Notes under the pieces: generated by a model
Seen by the model: the letters and a program-made list of their open reading frames with translations, nothing else
Database searches by the model: none
What the model was told of the DNA's origin: nothing
Assembly (NCBI GenBank): GCA_025963775.1
Contig: JAOQAD010000015.1
Location: forward strand, 1-64,000
Length of the DNA: 64,000 bases
Reading direction: 5' to 3'
Origin: Bacteroidota bacterium
GTDB lineage: Bacteria; Bacteroidota; Bacteroidia; 2-12-FULL-35-15
Position numbers and translations under genes: made by a program
Shown: in pieces, positions 2,675-39,336 of the stretch
Layout: each line of letters begins with the position of its first letter
How positions within the stretch are numbered: position 1 is the stretch's first letter

Positions 2675-2753
2675 CGATTTCAAAGGACGAAGGTCAGGGA
2701 ATGCCATCCGATAGCAAAAATTAAACAGAATGACATTGGATGTTCGGTTTGAT

Positions 2754-2823
2754 AGCCCCGGAGGGGCTCAACATCTTTAGAGATCAATTAATAAAAATGA
2801 TAGTAATTGCCCCGGAGGGGCAA
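2754..2823. repeat. inverted copy of the RAYT-associated palindrome unit, 5' flank
   Basis: Two perfect palindromic cores, GCCCCGGAGGGGC, sit at 2755-2767 and 2809-2821, joined by a segment containing AACATCTTTAGA. Read on the minus strand this block matches one unit of the array downstream of the transposase (core, spacer, TCTAAAGATGTT, second core). The transposase at 2833 is therefore bracketed by oppositely oriented units. The outer core here is of the CCCC/GGGG type, where the downstream units have a GGCCTC/GAGGCC palindrome. Confidence 0.75.
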
Positions 2824-2832
2824 AATAAATTT

Positions 2833-3297
2833 ATGGCAGATACCTTCACCCAGATCTTTTATCATGTTGTTTTTGCAGTCAGGAATAGGGAATCCCTTAT
2901 CACACCGGAAATTAAAGATGATTTGTATAAGTATATATCCGGGATCATTACAAATCAAAAGCAAAAAGTATTTATTATAAACGGCATGCCTGACCACGTT
3001 CATATTTTAATGAACTGCAAGCCAAACATGAATTTATCCGATAATGTTCGTGAAATAAAAGAGCATTCAACAAAATTTATTAATGACAAGAAAGTTCTTC
3101 GCGGACAATTTTATTGGCAGGGAGGATTTGGTGCGTTTACAGTTTCTAAAAAAGATGTTCCGATGGTTTTGAATTATATTCAAAATCAGGAAGAGCATCA
3201 TAAGCAGAAAACGTTCAGGGAGGAATATTTAGCTTTTCTCCAGGAAAATGAAATTGAATTTAAAGAGGAATATCTTTTTGATTTTGAGTTGACATAA
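2833..3297 (+). CDS. REP-associated tyrosine transposase (IS200/IS605 Y1-like)
   Basis: A 154-residue single-domain Y1 HUH nuclease. It shows the HUH motif (His55-Val-His57 in PDHVHIL) and the catalytic Tyr115 in NYIQNQEEHH, the arrangement seen in IS200-like and REP-associated transposases. Start: the frame is open from 2740, but the leader would be encoded by the palindromic repeat, and family members begin MADTFTQI-like, so ATG 2833 is preferred. No accessory TnpB is present. Inverted palindromic repeats lie on both sides, which is the hallmark of RAYT rather than a complete IS200. It is expected to cut and join single-stranded DNA at such hairpins. Confidence 0.88.
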   Translation: MADTFTQIFYHVVFAVRNRESLITPEIKDDLYKYISGIITNQKQKVFIINGMPDHVHILMNCKPNMNLSDNVREIKEHSTKFINDKKVLRGQFYWQGGFGAFTVSKKDVPMVLNYIQNQEEHHKQKTFREEYLAFLQENEIEFKEEYLFDFELT

Positions 3298-3313: not shown

Positions 3314-3715
3314 TTTTGCCCCTCCGGGGCAATTGGAATCGGTTTAGGGCTATTGTTTCTAAAGATGTTTGGCCTCTCTGAGGCCATTGCATTTTTTGAT
3401 TATAACTCAACAATACTAACTTTTGACCTGTTTTAAAATGCTTGGTTTCTCTGAGACCATGTATAATTTGTTTTGCCCCTCCGGGGCAATTGGAATCGGT
3501 TTAGGATTATTGTTTCTAAAGATGTTTGGCCTCTCTGAGGCCATTGTGTTTTTTATTGTAACTCAGCAATACTAACTTTTGACCTGTTTTAAAATGCCTG
3601 GTTTCTCTGAGACCATATATAATTGTTTTGCCCGGGGCAATTGGAATCGGTTTAGGGCTATAGTTTCTATAGATGTTTGGCCTCTCTGAGGCCATTGTTT
3701 ACAGAGGATGTTTCT
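3314..3715. repeat. REP/BIME-like array: three tandem units of about 156 bp
   Basis: Units begin at 3314, 3471 and 3626 (spacing 157 and 155). Each full unit has three hairpins: A (GCCCCTCCGGGGC at 3318-3330 and 3475-3487; shortened GCCCGGGGC at 3630-3638), B (GGCCTCTCTGAGGCC at 3371-3385, 3528-3542, 3679-3693) and C (GGTTTCTCTGAGACC at 3444-3458, 3600-3614). The third unit stops after B. The array starts 17 bases after the transposase stop and contains no open reading frame of note. It is most likely mobilised by the adjacent RAYT. Confidence 0.85.
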
Positions 3716-3843
3716 GCCCCTGCGTGGCGGCAATGTCCTCCCGACAATTATATAATTGTTTTTTGCTAAAGACCTTTGGTTTCTCCGGGGCCTGACATTT
3801 TTAGAAATACCGTTTCAACACCTTCAACGGCCTCAGAGAGGCC
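3716..3843. repeat. degenerate end of the palindrome array
   Basis: After the third unit there are decayed hairpins: GCCCCTGCGTGGCGGC near 3716-3731 and GGTTTCTCCGGGGCC at 3778-3792. The region then ends in an inverted B palindrome, GGCCTCAGAGAGGCC at 3829-3843, which runs into the 3' end of the dehydrogenase gene on the minus strand. Nothing else is evident between 3716 and 3829. Confidence 0.6.
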
Positions 3844-4777
3844 GAGCATCTCTAAGGATCTTCTCCGCCAGCACCTTCGCAATCTTCTCATTGCTCTCGT
3901 GTGTCCAGCCCGCGATATGTGAACTCAGGATCACTCTATCGCTTTTGATCAGTTGTTGAAAAGCTTCCGGTAAGGTATGGATCTCAAGGTTCTCAAAAGA
4001 TACCATTTCGTATTCCAGCACATCGAGGCAGGCCCCTGCTACTTTACCGGATTGGAGGTGCTTTACAAGGCCTGCAGTATCCAGGCACTTTCCACGTGCA
4101 GTGTTGATGATGTAAATGTTCTTTTTGAATTTGCTGATAAACTCATCATTAATAAGATAATGTGTTGCATCCGTCAGTGGTGTATGAAGGCTCAGCACAT
4201 CCGCCTCTGAAAAGATCTGTTCCATCGAAGCTTCCTGCACCTGTTCATTGCCAAATCCTTTTTTGTATTTATCGTAAGCGAGAACTGTAACACCAAAACC
4301 TTTCAGCCTTTCGGCAAAAGCGCTTCCCATATTTCCATAGCCGATGATGCCTACTGTTTTACCCATCAGCTCTATTCCTCTGTTGCCTTCACGGATCCAT
4401 TTGCCTTCGCGTACTTCGCGGTCGGCGCGGCAGATGTTGTTGAAGAGTGCAAGCAGCATCCCGATGGCATGCTCTGCAACAGCATCGCGGTTTCCTTCCG
4501 GCGCGTGGATGCATTTTATTCCTTTGCTTTCAGCATAGTCCACATCAATATTCTCCATCCCGGCCCCGGCACGTGCGATGAATTTCAGGCGGCTGGCTTT
4601 ATCGATGATCTCTTTCGTGATCTTAATTTTGCTGCGGATCACAATTCCATCGTACAAATGAATGCTGGCAATGATCTCTTCCTTTGTCCAGCTGTAATTC
4701 AGGTCGCAGGTATGCCCGGCCTTCTGCAGTGTTTCGTGCAGCAGGGGATGATTGGAATCAATGAAAAGGATCTTCAT
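3833..4777 (-). CDS. D-2-hydroxyacid dehydrogenase (phosphoglycerate dehydrogenase-like)
   Basis: A 314-residue NAD-dependent D-2-hydroxyacid dehydrogenase. The Rossmann motif GYGNMG is at 146-151, and the family catalytic trio is visible as Arg228 (NTARG), Glu255 (LDVLE) and His287 (SSHIAGW). It lacks the C-terminal ACT domain of classical SerA, so short-form 3-phosphoglycerate dehydrogenase or another 2-hydroxyacid enzyme is possible. It starts 2 bases after mgtE ends on the same strand, suggesting co-transcription. Its last codons (Arg-Pro-Leu-stop) are read from a REP-like palindrome, so the native C-terminus may have been replaced. Confidence 0.88.
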   Translation of the reverse strand: MKILFIDSNHPLLHETLQKAGHTCDLNYSWTKEEIIASIHLYDGIVIRSKIKITKEIIDKASRLKFIARAGAGMENIDVDYAESKGIKCIHAPEGNRDAVAEHAIGMLLALFNNICRADREVREGKWIREGNRGIELMGKTVGIIGYGNMGSAFAERLKGFGVTVLAYDKYKKGFGNEQVQEASMEQIFSEADVLSLHTPLTDATHYLINDEFISKFKKNIYIINTARGKCLDTAGLVKHLQSGKVAGACLDVLEYEMVSFENLEIHTLPEAFQQLIKSDRVILSSHIAGWTHESNEKIAKVLAEKILRDARPL

Positions 4778-4779
4778 TT

Positions 4780-6174
4780 TTATAAGAGTGTTCCTTTGAG
4801 AAATATGATGGAAAAGGTAAAGTAGATGATCAGCCCGGTAACATCAACAAGCGTTGCTACGAAAGGAGCGGAGGATACTGCCGGGTCAAGGCCGACACGC
4901 TTCAGGGCAAGGGGAAGCAGCGAGCCCATCAGCGTTCCCCACATCACCACGCCAACAAGTGCGCAGCCAACAGTCAATGCGATCATGTGCCAGTGCGGGC
5001 CGTAGCTGCTGATAAAATACGACCAGAGCGCAACCCTTGCAAATCCGATAAAGCCAAGTATAACGCCGATCACCATTCCGGTGGAGAATTCTTTTTTAAC
5101 GATCTTCCACCAGTCGCGCACAGTGATCTCGCCCAGTGCAAGCGCACGGATGATCAGTGTGGAAGCCTGGGAGCCGCTGTTACCGCCGCTGGAGATAATA
5201 AGCGGGATAAAAAGGGCAAGGATCACCGCTTTCGCGATCTGGTCCTCAAAAAAGCTCATCGCCGTAGCGGTAAGTGTTTCACCAAGAAAAAGGATAATGA
5301 GCCATCCGACCCGCTTTTTAATCATCTGCCGGAAAGGCGTGCTCATGTATGGCTCTTCAAGGGCTTCCATCGCACCCATCTTCTGCACGTCCTCTGTTTC
5401 CTCTTCCCTTCTTACATCCGCAACGTCATCCACCGTGATGCGTCCTACAAGCCTTCCGAGGGCATCCACAACGGGCAGTACAACCAGGTTGTACTTGTCC
5501 ATGATGTTGGCAACCTCTTCCGTATCCGTATTTGTTTTTACAGAGATCACTTTCGGATCATAAATATCGGCGATCCTGGAGCGGGTAGGGGAGATCACCA
5601 GCTTTTTCAGCGACAGTAATCCAACCAGCCGTTCATTATCATCCACCACATAAATGGCGTAAATATTTTCTACTTCATCTGCCTGCTCGCGGATCTCGCG
5701 CACACACTCGATGGAGTTGCTGTTCACATGCACCCGCACAAGCTCGGTAGCCATTAAGCCGCCGGCAGTGTTCTCATCATAATTTAAAAGCTCTACAATG
5801 TCGCTGGCCTGCTCGCTGTCCTCCATGTGCGACAATACCTCGTCCTGCACATCATCCGGTAATTCCGCGATCACATCGGCGGCATCATCCGAATCCATGT
5901 TGTCGATCAGCTGTTCCGCGATCTCCTTGGGAGTAAGCGAAGAGAGGATCTCTTCACGCACATCTTCTTCCAGCTCCACCAGCACATCGGCGGCGATCTG
6001 TTCATCAAGATAATTGTAAAGGAATTTTACCTGCTCAATGGAAAGCTCGTTGAAAATTTCGGCAATATCAGGCGGGTACAGCTCTTTCAGCTGCGTTTCC
6101 ACGAAGGCTGTGTCCTTGATGTCGATCGCATCCTGCAGCCTTGTTAAAAATTCGTTTGTTAATTCAAATTGCAC
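4780..6174 (-). CDS. mgtE: magnesium transporter MgtE
   Basis: A 464-residue Mg2+ channel/transporter in the inner membrane. It has the superhelical MgtE N domain (about 1-130, rich in acidic residues, with repeated DDAADVIAELPDD-type helices), two CBS domains (about 135-255) and a five-helix membrane domain (about 280-460) containing the conserved GGNSGSQAS signature of the pore region. Length and order fit the family. In known MgtE proteins Mg2+ binding to the N and CBS domains closes the pore. It is probably first in a two-gene unit with the downstream dehydrogenase. Confidence 0.95.
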   Translation of the reverse strand: MQFELTNEFLTRLQDAIDIKDTAFVETQLKELYPPDIAEIFNELSIEQVKFLYNYLDEQIAADVLVELEEDVREEILSSLTPKEIAEQLIDNMDSDDAADVIAELPDDVQDEVLSHMEDSEQASDIVELLNYDENTAGGLMATELVRVHVNSNSIECVREIREQADEVENIYAIYVVDDNERLVGLLSLKKLVISPTRSRIADIYDPKVISVKTNTDTEEVANIMDKYNLVVLPVVDALGRLVGRITVDDVADVRREEETEDVQKMGAMEALEEPYMSTPFRQMIKKRVGWLIILFLGETLTATAMSFFEDQIAKAVILALFIPLIISSGGNSGSQASTLIIRALALGEITVRDWWKIVKKEFSTGMVIGVILGFIGFARVALWSYFISSYGPHWHMIALTVGCALVGVVMWGTLMGSLLPLALKRVGLDPAVSSAPFVATLVDVTGLIIYFTFSIIFLKGTLL

Positions 6175-6212: not shown

Positions 6213-6277
6213 CGGTTTATCCTAAATTGGGAGCGAATCGGGGAGAAATTTAATCGGGACGGGCGGGCAAGAAAAAA

Positions 6278-6303
6278 CCACTTCCCGCGCCTGCAGGAAG
6301 TGG
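6278..6303 (-). terminator. rho-independent terminator after the LipL32-like gene
   Basis: CCACTTCC at 6278-6285 pairs with GGAAGTGG at 6296-6303. On the minus strand the hairpin is followed by a run of six T (A-run at 6272-6277), 18 bases after the stop codon of the gene at 6322. Confidence 0.75.
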
Positions 6304-6321
6304 CCCTTCAATGAATACTGC

Positions 6322-7020
6322 TTACTGTGCAGCAACAAGCTTCATCAGCTCGTCAATTGTTTGTGCGATCTTAACTCCCGGCAGTTTTACCGGTGCGCCA
6401 ACCTGTGCAACAAAGCTGCCCTGCACTTCACCTGTTTTGTAGGTGGTGAAGCCAATGCGGTACAGGCCTGCAACAAGTGCTTTCTTTGGATTGCTCACTT
6501 CGCTGGTGATGCGCATCAGTGAATTGTATTTGCTTCCCGATGGCTGTGCGGGCATTTCAGATGAATCATCATTCTGGTCGTACACGTTCCAGCTTGCTGT
6601 TTTTCCTTTTCCAAGGTCAGCAGCGCTTGTGATGCCTTCAGCCCTTTCAAGGGAGATCCAGGTATCGAAATAATTTGTTTTGTCGGCAGCGTTCGCTGTG
6701 TAGTCAGCCGACACGATGTCTGTTTTCTCCGGCGTCATCTTGTCAACCGGTGAAGCCATGCGCACGCCAACTTCCGGTGCAGCAGCAGGGATCCAGATGT
6801 AGATGTAGTAATACTTTTTACCACCGCGCTCTTCATCCGGCTTTGCTCCCGGCTTGATATAGCCATAGTATGTAAGCAGGTCCGTGTAAGGTATGCGCAC
6901 TTCTTTTCCCATTACGGATTTTTTCCCCAGGTCTGCGCCGAACTTATCGAGCTTCTGGGCTGTGATTGTGGAAGTTGCTGTAATAGCAAGCACTCCAAGC
7001 AATGCGATCATTTTTTTCAT
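6322..7020 (-). CDS. secreted LipL32-family surface protein homologue
   Basis: A 232-residue exported protein resembling LipL32/Hap1, the major surface lipoprotein of pathogenic Leptospira. Matching blocks from memory of that family are YYGYIKPG (51-58), IYIWIPA..PEVGVRM (73-88), FDTWI..ER (118-126), KYNSL.RI (164-171) and LYRIGFTTYKTGEVQGSFVA (186-205). The residues aligned with the LipL32 Ca2+ site (Asp132, Thr133, Asp164, Asp165, Tyr178) appear kept as Asp119, Thr120, Asp151, Asp152 and Tyr165. Unlike LipL32 there is no lipobox cysteine: the signal peptide ends ...STITAQ, so the product should be cleaved by signal peptidase I and be soluble or non-lipidated. It is a single-gene unit with its own promoter and terminator. 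Confidence 0.85.
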   Translation of the reverse strand: MKKMIALLGVLAITATSTITAQKLDKFGADLGKKSVMGKEVRIPYTDLLTYYGYIKPGAKPDEERGGKKYYYIYIWIPAAAPEVGVRMASPVDKMTPEKTDIVSADYTANAADKTNYFDTWISLERAEGITSAADLGKGKTASWNVYDQNDDSSEMPAQPSGSKYNSLMRITSEVSNPKKALVAGLYRIGFTTYKTGEVQGSFVAQVGAPVKLPGVKIAQTIDELMKLVAAQ

Positions 7021-7059: not shown

Positions 7060-7090
7060 CAAATGTAGAAAGGAATAGCTCAAACGCAAA
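7060..7090 (-). promoter_or_regulatory. Bacteroidota promoter (-33 TTTG, 19-base spacer, -7 TACATTTG)
   Basis: On the minus strand TTTG (complement of 7087-7090) is followed after exactly 19 bases by TACATTTG (complement of 7060-7067). This is the full Bacteroidota sigma consensus, about 40 bases before the LipL32-like gene. The quality of the match suggests strong expression. Confidence 0.7.
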
Positions 7091-7216: not shown

Positions 7217-7996
7217 TCAGGCAGTTTCCACCATGTTGGTGAGCGCCACAAAATCGGCAACGGATAATTCTTCCGCGCGTTGTGTAAGATATTTGTGATC
7301 GAGGAACTCCGGCTTTAATTTAAAGGCACGGATGGAATTGCGGAGTGTTTTTCTTCGCTGGTTGAAGCCCGCTTTCACGAGCTGCTTGAAAAGCTTCTCA
7401 TCGCAATCCAGCTTCGCAACAGCATTTCGCCGCAGCCGGATCACTGCCGACTTCACACGCGGTGGCGGGATGAATTCATTTTCAGCCACAGTGAAAAGGT
7501 AATCGATATCATAAAAAGCCTGCAGCAATACGCTCGTGATGCCGTATGTCTTATTTCTTGGCTTGGCTGCAATGCGCTCTGCCACTTCCTTCTGGAACAT
7601 GCCAACCACTTCGGGCACATGGTCCTTATGGTCCATTACCTTGAATAAAATTTCGGTGGAGATGTTGTAGGGGAAATTGCCGATCACTGCAAAAGGGCCG
7701 GGGAAAAGCTTTTCAAGGTCCAGCTCAAGAAAATCGCCATCGATGATGTTCTTCTCCAGCGAAGGGAAATTGACTTTCAGATATGCGATCGATTCCTTGT
7801 CAATGTCGATCACATGTGTTTCGTAATTGGTATGGGCGATGAGGTATTTTGTCAGTACACCCATTCCCGGGCCCACTTCCAGCACATGCGCGTATTCGGA
7901 AGTGCGCGACAGGCTCTCCACGATCTTTTGAGCAATGTCCTCATTCTTCAGAAAATGCTGTCCTAATTTTTTCTTTGCCCTTACAAAATCGCTCAT
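7217..7996 (-). CDS. rsmA: 16S rRNA (adenine1518/1519-N6)-dimethyltransferase RsmA (KsgA)
   Basis: A 259-residue SAM-dependent enzyme that dimethylates the two adjacent adenines in the 3' terminal hairpin of 16S rRNA during small-subunit maturation. The opening KKKLGQHFL is diagnostic. The SAM-binding motif GPGMG is at 42-46 and catalytic motif IV is NFPYNIS (107-113). The C-terminal helical domain contains the RRKTLRN signature. Length is normal. It is last in a minus-strand run of closely spaced genes; the gap to the preceding DUF4286 gene is 32 bases. Confidence 0.97.
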   Translation of the reverse strand: MSDFVRAKKKLGQHFLKNEDIAQKIVESLSRTSEYAHVLEVGPGMGVLTKYLIAHTNYETHVIDIDKESIAYLKVNFPSLEKNIIDGDFLELDLEKLFPGPFAVIGNFPYNISTEILFKVMDHKDHVPEVVGMFQKEVAERIAAKPRNKTYGITSVLLQAFYDIDYLFTVAENEFIPPPRVKSAVIRLRRNAVAKLDCDEKLFKQLVKAGFNQRRKTLRNSIRAFKLKPEFLDHKYLTQRAEELSVADFVALTNMVETA

Positions 7997-8028
7997 CTTA
8001 TTTTTTTAACGTATGTATTTCTTTACAA

Positions 8029-8328
8029 TTAAATAACTTCCAGGAGTGTGCGGAAGGCAACGGTCTTACTTGCGTAGCGGTCATTGTGCTCTTTTTGCAG
8101 CCGCGGTGAGTGCAGCCGCTGGTAATCCTCGAGCTGCTTCATGCTCTCGGCAGTGTACTGGATCGAGTAGGTAGTGCCCTGTTCTTCATCCACCAGCACT
8201 TTGCAGACCTTGTTCTCGATAAAATATCCCGTGGCCATTACGTCGGGAATATGAACTGTTTTCATCCAGTTCAGCCACTCTTCACGCACATCGTTCTCGA
8301 TGTTCACTGTTACATTGTAAATGATCAT
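8029..8328 (-). CDS. DUF4286 family protein
   Basis: A 99-residue cytoplasmic protein beginning MIIYNVTVNIENDVREEWL, with a WMKTVHIPDVMATGYF block typical of DUF4286, a small ferredoxin-like alpha/beta family common in Bacteroidota. Its function is unknown. The ATG overlaps the stop of the upstream lipoprotein gene by 4 bases (ATGA), so the two are translationally coupled. It lies just upstream of rsmA, an arrangement I believe is common in this phylum. Confidence 0.85.
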   Translation of the reverse strand: MIIYNVTVNIENDVREEWLNWMKTVHIPDVMATGYFIENKVCKVLVDEEQGTTYSIQYTAESMKQLEDYQRLHSPRLQKEHNDRYASKTVAFRTLLEVI

Positions 8329-8798
8329 TTCCTGAAAAAATTAGTTAAATACTTAGCGTCGATGTCGACCGTGCTTTGCAGCTGCGGCGTATCTGCACCG
8401 TTATATAAGTAGAGTGCCCACCAGAGCTCCTCGGAAGCGGAGCGGTTAACAAGCAGGTGCTTATCGTTCGCGAGTGAAAAGTCAAGGTACTTTGAGCTGG
8501 TGCTGTAATTTTTTATTTTAAGAGAATCCGCAAGGTCCATCAGCTGCGAATTGTAAAAGCTGTAATCATCGGCAATGGTGTAAAAAGCATCGGAATCCTC
8601 GCTTTTCATTTGTTCCGCCTGCAGGCTGTCGGGCCACATGAAAAGCACTGCCGGGCCATACAGCTTCAGTGTATCACCCGAAGTTTGAGGATCGATGGAA
8701 ACACTTGCCAGCTTTGTTTTTTTCTCTTCCACCGAAGGCGAAGAGCAGGCTGCTGCAAGTACCGACAGGAGAAATAGTATGGATAATGTTCTGTTCAT
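8325..8798 (-). CDS. lipoprotein of unknown function
   Basis: A 157-residue protein with a clear lipobox (LAAAC, Cys18) after a 17-residue hydrophobic signal, then a short Ser/Lys linker. The mature domain contains the segment LYGPAVLFMWPDSLQ and a YDDYSFYNSQ-like stretch; I recognise no named family. It starts 2 bases after the upstream TPR gene ends and overlaps the DUF4286 gene by 4 bases, so it belongs to the same transcript. Anchoring to the outer or inner membrane by its lipid is inferred. Confidence 0.8.
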   Translation of the reverse strand: MNRTLSILFLLSVLAAACSSPSVEEKKTKLASVSIDPQTSGDTLKLYGPAVLFMWPDSLQAEQMKSEDSDAFYTIADDYSFYNSQLMDLADSLKIKNYSTSSKYLDFSLANDKHLLVNRSASEELWWALYLYNGADTPQLQSTVDIDAKYLTNFFRK

Positions 8799-37902: not shown

Positions 37903-39336
37903 ATGATCAAAGAGCTTAAAACATTACCCTTCTGGTTACTCACCTTCGCATTAATCATCATACTCACTTTATCGCAGCTTCTCCGGGATGGCATATTCAT
38001 GGATGGAATGCTGTACATCAGCGTAAGCAAGAACCTTGCAGAGGGCATCGGAACTTTCTGGGATCCCTGCTTCAGCGCAACGAACATGCCTTCGTTCCAT
38101 GAACAGCCGCCGCTGTATTTCGGACTGCTTGCCTTGTTCTACAAAGTGTTCGGCACGGGCATGTACGTGGAGCGCCTGTTTTGCTTTTTATGCTTCGGTA
38201 CGGTTACATTTTACATTCACCTGCTGTGGCGGAAGATCTATAGCGATGACCAGCAGGCTGCCGTGAACAGCTGGCTGCCTGTATTGTTCTGGTCTGTCAT
38301 TCCTGTCTGCTTCTGGGCTTATGCCAATCATGTGGAAGAAACACTGATGGCTGTTTTTGCCGTTGCAGCGGTCTATCATGTTTGCTGTGCATTGTTCCGG
38401 AATGAAAAAGTGCTGCTGAACCTGGTGCTGGCAGGCGTGTTCGTTTTTCTTGCTACCCTCACAAAAGGCATCCAGGGAGCTTTCCCGCTGGTGTCTGTCG
38501 GCATCTACTGGCTTGTAACGCGGAACATTTCCTTTAAAAAAATGATCACTTGTTCGCTTGTGCTTTTAGCTGTTCCTGTGTGCATCTATTCCTTTCTGCT
38601 GATCAGCGATCCCGACGTGTACATGAGCTTTCAGAAGTATTTCAATGCCCGGATTGTAGAAACATTTAACAATGTGCGGCCAACCACCGACTCGCGCTTT
38701 GAGCTGCTGATCAAGCTTTTTTCCGAGATGCTGCCGGTGCTGTTGCTGAGCGGGATTATTCTGTTGCTCACAAAAATAAACAGGAAGGATATTGCCTTAA
38801 CAGGAAAGCACAAACAGGCAGCGCTGTGGTTCCTGCTGATCGGGCTTTCCGGCTCATTGCCGCTGATGGTCACATTTGAACAGCGGAGATTTTATCTGGT
38901 CACCGCATTGCCATTTTTTGTACTGGCGATCAGCATGCTTACTGTGCCGGGCATCAGTCACTGGATCAACAAGGCGGACGCATCTTCCAAAGGTTTTAAA
39001 TGGTTCAGGATCTCGCAGGTGACAGTGCTGCTTGTTGCTGTGGTGTATAGCTTCAGCGGGATGAAAGAGCCGAAGCGCGATAAGGACCTCCTGTCCGACA
39101 TTTATTATATCGGTAAAATCGTACCTCCGGGGGAGATCATGAGCATCCCGGTTGAAATGTACAACGACTGGAACCTAAAGGCATACATGATGCGGAATTT
39201 CCGGATCAGCCTGGATGAAAAAAATGCGAAAAAATATTTTCTTGTGAGAAAGGAATATTCCGCGAAGGTGCCGGCAAACTACAGGCTGTGTTCAAAAGGC
39301 ACAAAGGAGATCGACCTGTATGAAGCCTCTTTTTAA
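37903..39336 (+). CDS. GT39/ArnT-like membrane glycosyltransferase
   Basis: A 477-residue polytopic protein with about ten membrane helices. The N-terminal periplasmic loop reads RDGIFMDGMLYISVSKNLAEG, with the acidic pair and Tyr typical of GT-C enzymes related to ArnT and PMT, then MPSFHEQPPLYFGL. The soluble C-terminus is short. It is expected to transfer a sugar from a polyprenyl-phosphate donor on the periplasmic side; the acceptor is unknown. It stands alone between an M20 peptidase and small genes. Confidence 0.82.
   Translation: MIKELKTLPFWLLTFALIIILTLSQLLRDGIFMDGMLYISVSKNLAEGIGTFWDPCFSATNMPSFHEQPPLYFGLLALFYKVFGTGMYVERLFCFLCFGTVTFYIHLLWRKIYSDDQQAAVNSWLPVLFWSVIPVCFWAYANHVEETLMAVFAVAAVYHVCCALFRNEKVLLNLVLAGVFVFLATLTKGIQGAFPLVSVGIYWLVTRNISFKKMITCSLVLLAVPVCIYSFLLISDPDVYMSFQKYFNARIVETFNNVRPTTDSRFELLIKLFSEMLPVLLLSGIILLLTKINRKDIALTGKHKQAALWFLLIGLSGSLPLMVTFEQRRFYLVTALPFFVLAISMLTVPGISHWINKADASSKGFKWFRISQVTVLLVAVVYSFSGMKEPKRDKDLLSDIYYIGKIVPPGEIMSIPVEMYNDWNLKAYMMRNFRISLDEKNAKKYFLVRKEYSAKVPANYRLCSKGTKEIDLYEASF

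Follow-up and report, generated by a model that had tools for sequence, protein, structure and literature searches.

We have analysed a stretch of 64,000 nucleotides from an environmental Bacteroidota bacterium (assembly GCA_025963775.1, contig JAOQAD010000015.1, positions 1 to 64,000 of the forward strand; this whole stretch is called the window), which carries a gene for a relative of the leptospiral protein LipL32. In our best explanation, to which a probability of roughly 0.6 can be given, the product is a soluble, most likely periplasmic Ca2+-binding protein of the LipL32 family, encoded by a single-gene unit that was gained once in its genus. The gene and its relevant parts are the following:

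6322..7020, minus strand: ORF (open reading frame) of the LipL32-family protein, ATG start, 232 amino acids
6958..7020, minus strand: signal peptide, codons 1-21, with a predicted signal peptidase I cleavage A21/Q22 (site placed by eye) and no lipobox
6661..6666, minus strand: codons of Asp119-Thr120, equivalent to LipL32 Asp132-Thr133, kept in 227/227 and 225/227 homologues, respectively, and both in 79/79 loci
6565..6570, minus strand: codons of Asp151-Asp152, equivalent to LipL32 Asp164-Asp165, both kept in 227/227 homologues and in 79/79 loci
6526..6528, minus strand: codon of Tyr165, equivalent to LipL32 Tyr178, kept in 223/227 homologues and 78/79 loci (Phe in L060)

It was clearly seen that the protein belongs to the LipL32 family, as the original prediction had proposed from the sequence: the Pfam profile PF12103 (Lipl32) matched it with E 2.2e-76 and 255.9 bits (cut-off 25) over profile positions 1-179 of 179, and three distinct solved LipL32 sequences matched it with E of about 1e-35. 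The same profile was matched by 43/43 members of a diverse alignment (A1), and the predicted fold of the window protein is the beta-sandwich (jelly-roll) of LipL32. The NCBIfam equivalog model for LipL32 proper (NF038394) gave 138.7 bits, under its cut-off of 300; taken with the full-length Pfam match, this score means that the window protein is a member of the family, not LipL32 proper. It is about 40% identical to the LipL32 of pathogenic Leptospira (PDB 2ZZ8, 3FRL, 2WFK), from which it differs in its length (232 against 272 amino acids), in the lack of a lipobox Cys and in its position on a different deep branch. Pfam gave no second domain at E up to 10, and no type IX secretion domain was seen in the protein.

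The earlier idea that few homologues exist outside the spirochaetes has to be abandoned, since 1171 protein clusters of the family were found at E <= 0.001 and Bacteroidetes orthologues were already tabulated in 2014. The excerpts of that paper (Gardiner 2014, PMC4080168) put both these orthologues and transfer in print, and include Cellulophaga, Formosa and Ulvibacter members, which were not fetched by name here. The window protein is an ordinary new member of a family already known in Bacteroidota, and the family-level picture is modestly new; among the matches listed in the open-licence literature no title dealt with an exchange of the anchor across the LipL32 family.

The Ca2+ ligands of LipL32 are given in print as Asp132, Thr133, Asp164, Asp165 and Tyr178 (PMC5566480, PMC8951592), and Asp119, Thr120, Asp151, Asp152 and Tyr165 of the window protein align with them in this order. 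The expectation that the ligands are kept thus held for all five residues, from which binding is predicted. The 227 homologues counted above are the 120 listed as nearest to the window protein plus the 120 listed as nearest to LipL32 (13 being shared), out of the 1171 clusters. The 79 loci are named genome loci with a recovered ORF, out of 80 (L073 is cut off); these 80 are the best of 228 stretches found to encode a LipL32-family relative in a scan with one genome per species. Since the ligands stand among 37 columns conserved at >=97%, the Ca2+ site, as read from the alignment, is part of a larger conserved core. For LipL32 itself, an important contribution of Ca2+ to stability has been described (PMC5566480).

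It might be argued that the protein is a structural or storage component of the envelope, in which the Ca2+ site serves stability only and no specific ligand is bound. That no conserved partner gene was seen outside shared Flavobacterium synteny blocks would agree with such a role, but 32 of the 37 conserved columns are not Ca2+ ligands, so that conservation seems to extend to a core or face outside the metal site, and we consider this explanation very improbable. In the mechanism preferred here, Ca2+ would be held by Asp119, Thr120, Asp151, Asp152 and Tyr165 and would rigidify the acidic loop, so that it would shape a putative ligand-binding face, as proposed for LipL32. According to the title of a study by Tung in 2010, Ca2+ reportedly modulates the fibronectin binding of LipL32.

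The anchor was predicted to be missing, and indeed no Cys occurs in residues 1-40 and the lipobox is absent. The signal peptide appears to end ITA/QKL, which places Gln directly after the predicted cleavage site, as in the Q-rule of signal peptidase I sites described for Bacteroidetes (PMC5837995). The host organism seems to follow this rule, since 13/27 ORFs of the window with a hydrophobic N-terminus have an [AGS]Q site (a rough count, which includes the LipL32-family gene and at least one false match, 37903-39336). The protein would be exported by Sec and cut by signal peptidase I at A21/Q22, and the soluble mature form, most likely residing in the periplasm, would start with a Gln that is expected to turn into pyroglutamate. 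The lack of both an anchor and a second Pfam domain favours a soluble, probably periplasmic Ca2+-binding protein, and the probable soluble form anticipated in the original prediction is supported. An exported, soluble beta-sandwich protein that binds Ca2+ is the most likely identity of the window protein, its ligand and location being putative.

The [AGS]Q site is present in 104/120 of the nearest homologue clusters and, among the named genome loci with a recovered ORF, in 67/71 from Bacteroidota and 5/5 from Ignavibacteriota; this scoring can give false hits, as in L077, which was scored by an AQ within its mature part. The other 16 clusters comprise ten FIGGDD- or APGGG-type N-termini, one ending AD and five truncated or doubtful starts, and the four exceptional Bacteroidota loci include L027 and L030, both with doubtful starts. 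Matches to the lipobox pattern in 4/120 nearest clusters (P0034, P0064, P0065, P0080), in 2/71 Bacteroidota loci (L011, L070) and in the gamma-type rows P0160, P0167, P0168 and P0172 were judged by eye to be a chance Cys before an ordinary cleavage site. Bacteroidota proteins that public records call "LipL32 family surface lipoprotein" (P0006, P0018) have the same A/Q signal peptide and lie on the same branch as the window protein. As far as these N-termini tell, having no anchor is the ordinary condition of the Bacteroidota members, not a peculiarity of the window protein.

Other lineages differ in this respect. All 14 rows of the Leptospira clade (6 Leptospira-named) have a lipobox, 13 by pattern and P0123 by eye; among the named Spirochaetota loci outside this clade L077 and L078 have it and L076 does not. 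Most Treponema-type rows also have one. These lipidated members (L077, L078 and unnamed rows) share the deep branch and the Ca2+ ligands with the window protein, as well as a motif like FGA[DE] that follows the N-terminus, but unlike it they have a lipobox Cys and a Gly/Ser-rich tether. In 22/26 lipidated rows measured the Cys stands 7-10 residues ahead of the motif Phe, and in 27/30 Q-type rows the Gln stands 5 residues ahead of it. The gamma-type rows belong to the common family, with the Ca2+ ligands in the fetched rows and without a clear lipobox. Given how lipobox and Gln ends are distributed across the clades, the lipid anchor is, to judge from the N-termini, a changeable and lineage-linked feature of the family.

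Two further N-terminal types were noticed. The Ignavibacteriota loci L061, L068, L069, L071 and L074 also end their signal peptides in A/Q; the Q-rule is limited to Bacteroidetes, not the whole FCB group, in the excerpts of PMC5837995, and this ending could mean transfer from Bacteroidota. A small clade (P0188, P0190, P0212), outside the Bacteroidota set on the tree, has AE before KLP in place of AQ before KLD.

The family tree was built from the mature-domain columns of 97 rows, without a known root. On it a Leptospira clade (8 rows, support 100/97) and a gamma-type clade (15 rows, 100/99) are separated by a branch of 0.95 (100/100) from a group of 70 rows, which holds the window protein, other Bacteroidota, Ignavibacteriota and three named Spirochaetota loci. 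The window protein lies apart from Leptospira, in a second deep branch that it shares with proteins of Treponema type, of Ignavibacteriota and of other Bacteroidota. Within this group 32 rows (6 unnamed) form a set of Bacteroidota and Ignavibacteriota with support 92/86, under the star of the tool, and L072 (Bacteroidota) stands outside it; a single clade of the 27 named Bacteroidota and Ignavibacteriota rows is absent from the free tree, L072 being outside, and is not rejected (P value of the approximately unbiased test, p-AU, 0.208). Spirochaetota as one clade was rejected, with a tree 173 log-likelihood units worse and p-AU 8e-05; this constraint covered 11 rows, namely the 8 of the Leptospira clade (4 Leptospira-named) plus L076, L077 and L078. 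The separation of a Treponema protein from Leptospira was reported already in 2014, and in the same paper PtlL32 of Pseudoalteromonas tunicata clusters with Leptospira (PMC4080168). Our gamma-type rows (two named, Pseudoalteromonas and Photobacterium) form their own clade outside the 70-row group, and none of the rows was identified as PtlL32 itself.

The lipobox state follows the clades, since it requires at least 8 changes on the tree against 24-35 in 200 label shuffles (95 rows, two having been left out, with three states assigned by eye); scored by pattern alone it requires 11 changes. The non-lipidated 32-row set lies within the 70-row group, where 28 of the other 38 rows have a lipobox (25 by pattern, 3 by eye), 9 have none and 1 was dropped for a doubtful start. 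The suggestion that the window protein is close to an ancestral non-lipidated form is not supported by this arrangement on an unrooted tree.

The surroundings of the gene contain these features:

6262..6321, minus strand: intrinsic-terminator-like hairpin with a T run after the stop codon, -26.6 kcal/mol, z -3.15, 0/200 shuffles as stable
7060..7090, minus strand: TTTG-N19-TACATTTG, a weak Bacteroidota-type promoter-like match (pattern match)
7217..7996, minus strand: ksgA, rRNA adenine dimethylase, upstream neighbour and flank of the site (PF00398, E 1.2e-45; synteny)
4780..6174, minus strand: mgtE, divalent cation transporter, downstream neighbour and flank of the site (PF01769, E 6.2e-39; synteny)

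The hairpin with its T run, of which a similar copy was recognized by eye in the alignment with the sister genome G010, suggests a one-gene transcript. The fetched loci showed no conserved partner within about 8 kb of the gene, the recurrent neighbours being part of shared Flavobacterium synteny, and the gene would work as a single-gene unit without fixed partners. TTTG-N19-TACATTTG, which we take to be the Bacteroidota promoter consensus, was counted 3 times in the window, where chance alone would give 2.87, and upstream of 4/76 relatives (the window included) against 43/797 other ORFs, a control set not cleared of overlapping ORFs. The consensus promoter was accordingly rejected as evidence, and the strong expression once suggested is not supported.

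The distribution of the family is patchy: in a sample of the phylum the gene was found in 1/395 genomes, the window's own, and in another genus (g22) in 16/299. In the window's genus 2/36 sampled genomes (G000 and G010) carry it, at the single site between ksgA and mgtE; in 11 of the 36 the family search matched nowhere, controls included, and the same search matched G000 and G010. At the 30 MgtE loci of the genus ksgA and mgtE are adjacent without the gene in 18 cases, the gene stands between them in 2, and ksgA was not seen in 10. This presence at one site agrees with a single local gain. A tree of MgtE (29 rows, which leave out 7 of the 36 genomes) shows the two carriers as sisters, so one change suffices, and the probable history is one gain at the junction of ksgA and mgtE in the ancestor shared by the two sister species. 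The transfer suspected in the original prediction is consistent with this pattern, while composition is equivocal on it; the intergenic DNA of the site aligned too poorly for insertion boundaries to be placed.

Some observations were made beside this. An IS200-like Y1 transposase gene (2740-3297, plus strand; PF01797, E 1.8e-27) lies about 3 kb from the LipL32-family gene, and the sister locus L003 has a different ORF at the matching position. In another genus, the family matches of G580:C54 and G491:C123 are broken into several pieces, and that of G580 also contains stop codons; they look decaying or misassembled.

Several points weigh against the explanation preferred here. The generic NCBIfam lipoprotein model NF038029 touches residues 1-21 with 13.1 bits (cut-off 24), where there is no Cys though. 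PtlL32 has an effect on the colonisation of algae and on attachment to extracellular matrix (PMC4080168), and this speaks for a role at the surface or in released form. The main rival builds on this: the soluble window protein would reach the medium or the cell surface and act there as a Ca2+-dependent adhesin for the matrix polymers of other cells, algae or detritus, the role that is attributed to PtlL32. The missing anchor and the missing second domain speak for the periplasmic form, and we regard the adhesin as an unlikely but serious alternative. As to origin, the GC (guanine plus cytosine) content of the gene is 0.494, within the 0.466-0.511 of seven neighbouring genes, and its GC3 (third codon positions) of 0.524 is just under their 0.537-0.612, so that composition does not decide on transfer. 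The gain rests on two sister genomes from a small sample, and the window's genome is 65% complete. Finally, P0005-P0010 are 84-88% identical to the window protein and are unnamed or labelled Bacteroidia only; they could be unsampled members of the genus, and losses would then be likelier.

The last point, together with the broken-looking copies in G580 and G491, would agree with an ancestral gene of the genus that was lost in 34/36 sampled species, a question of origin and not of function. Such a history is improbable in our estimation: the MgtE tree needs a single change, and two genomes placed near the carrier pair on it, G436 and G434, have ksgA beside mgtE without the gene.

The site between ksgA and mgtE differs from what is found in Flavobacterium, where many copies stand near dnaN. 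A DnaN-like gene neighbours the family gene in 29/80 loci (23 titled Flavobacterium), usually just upstream, and L040, the one locus in which GldF, GldG, DnaN and MnmE were identified, has the order gldF-gldG-dnaN-LipL32-family gene with mnmE downstream. The gene looks long resident at the dnaN site in Flavobacterium; with the probable gain in the window's genus, both vertical keeping and local gain seem to occur in the family. Two assemblies have two copies each on different contigs and in different neighbourhoods (L017/L044 of Flavobacterium sp. UBA7665, L015/L037 of isolate USDV_maxbin.055), one after dnaN and the other next to genes for an SDR and for a mannose-1-phosphate guanylyltransferase-like protein. 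Aquimarina algiphila (L081) has two copies within about 5 kb (3700-4383 and 7992-8675).

LipL32 is described as the most abundant protein of pathogenic Leptospira, with primary functions that are largely unknown; it is reported to be mostly subsurface, and L. interrogans can do without it in both acute and chronic infection (PMC3544172). Quite tentatively, and with more doubt than belief, one may imagine the family at its root as a subsurface envelope Ca2+-binding protein, not a pathogen surface adhesin, with an unchanging Ca2+ site and an N-terminal attachment swapped by host phylum. In this speculative scheme Leptospira and most Treponema-type members might be attached by an acyl-Cys and a Gly/Ser tether, and Bacteroidota members might have a pyroglutamate and no anchor. 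If true, the core function of leptospiral LipL32 could be found in the harmless Flavobacterium relatives.

It should be emphasized that a protein called "LipL32" in a database, as the tree warns, is not thereby shown to be lipidated, to lie at the surface or to be closely tied to Leptospira. Since members with this Ca2+ site occur in culturable species of Flavobacterium, the role of the domain can be studied outside the pathogen, and the main use of the window protein lies in the question of what the family does in bacteria that are not pathogens.
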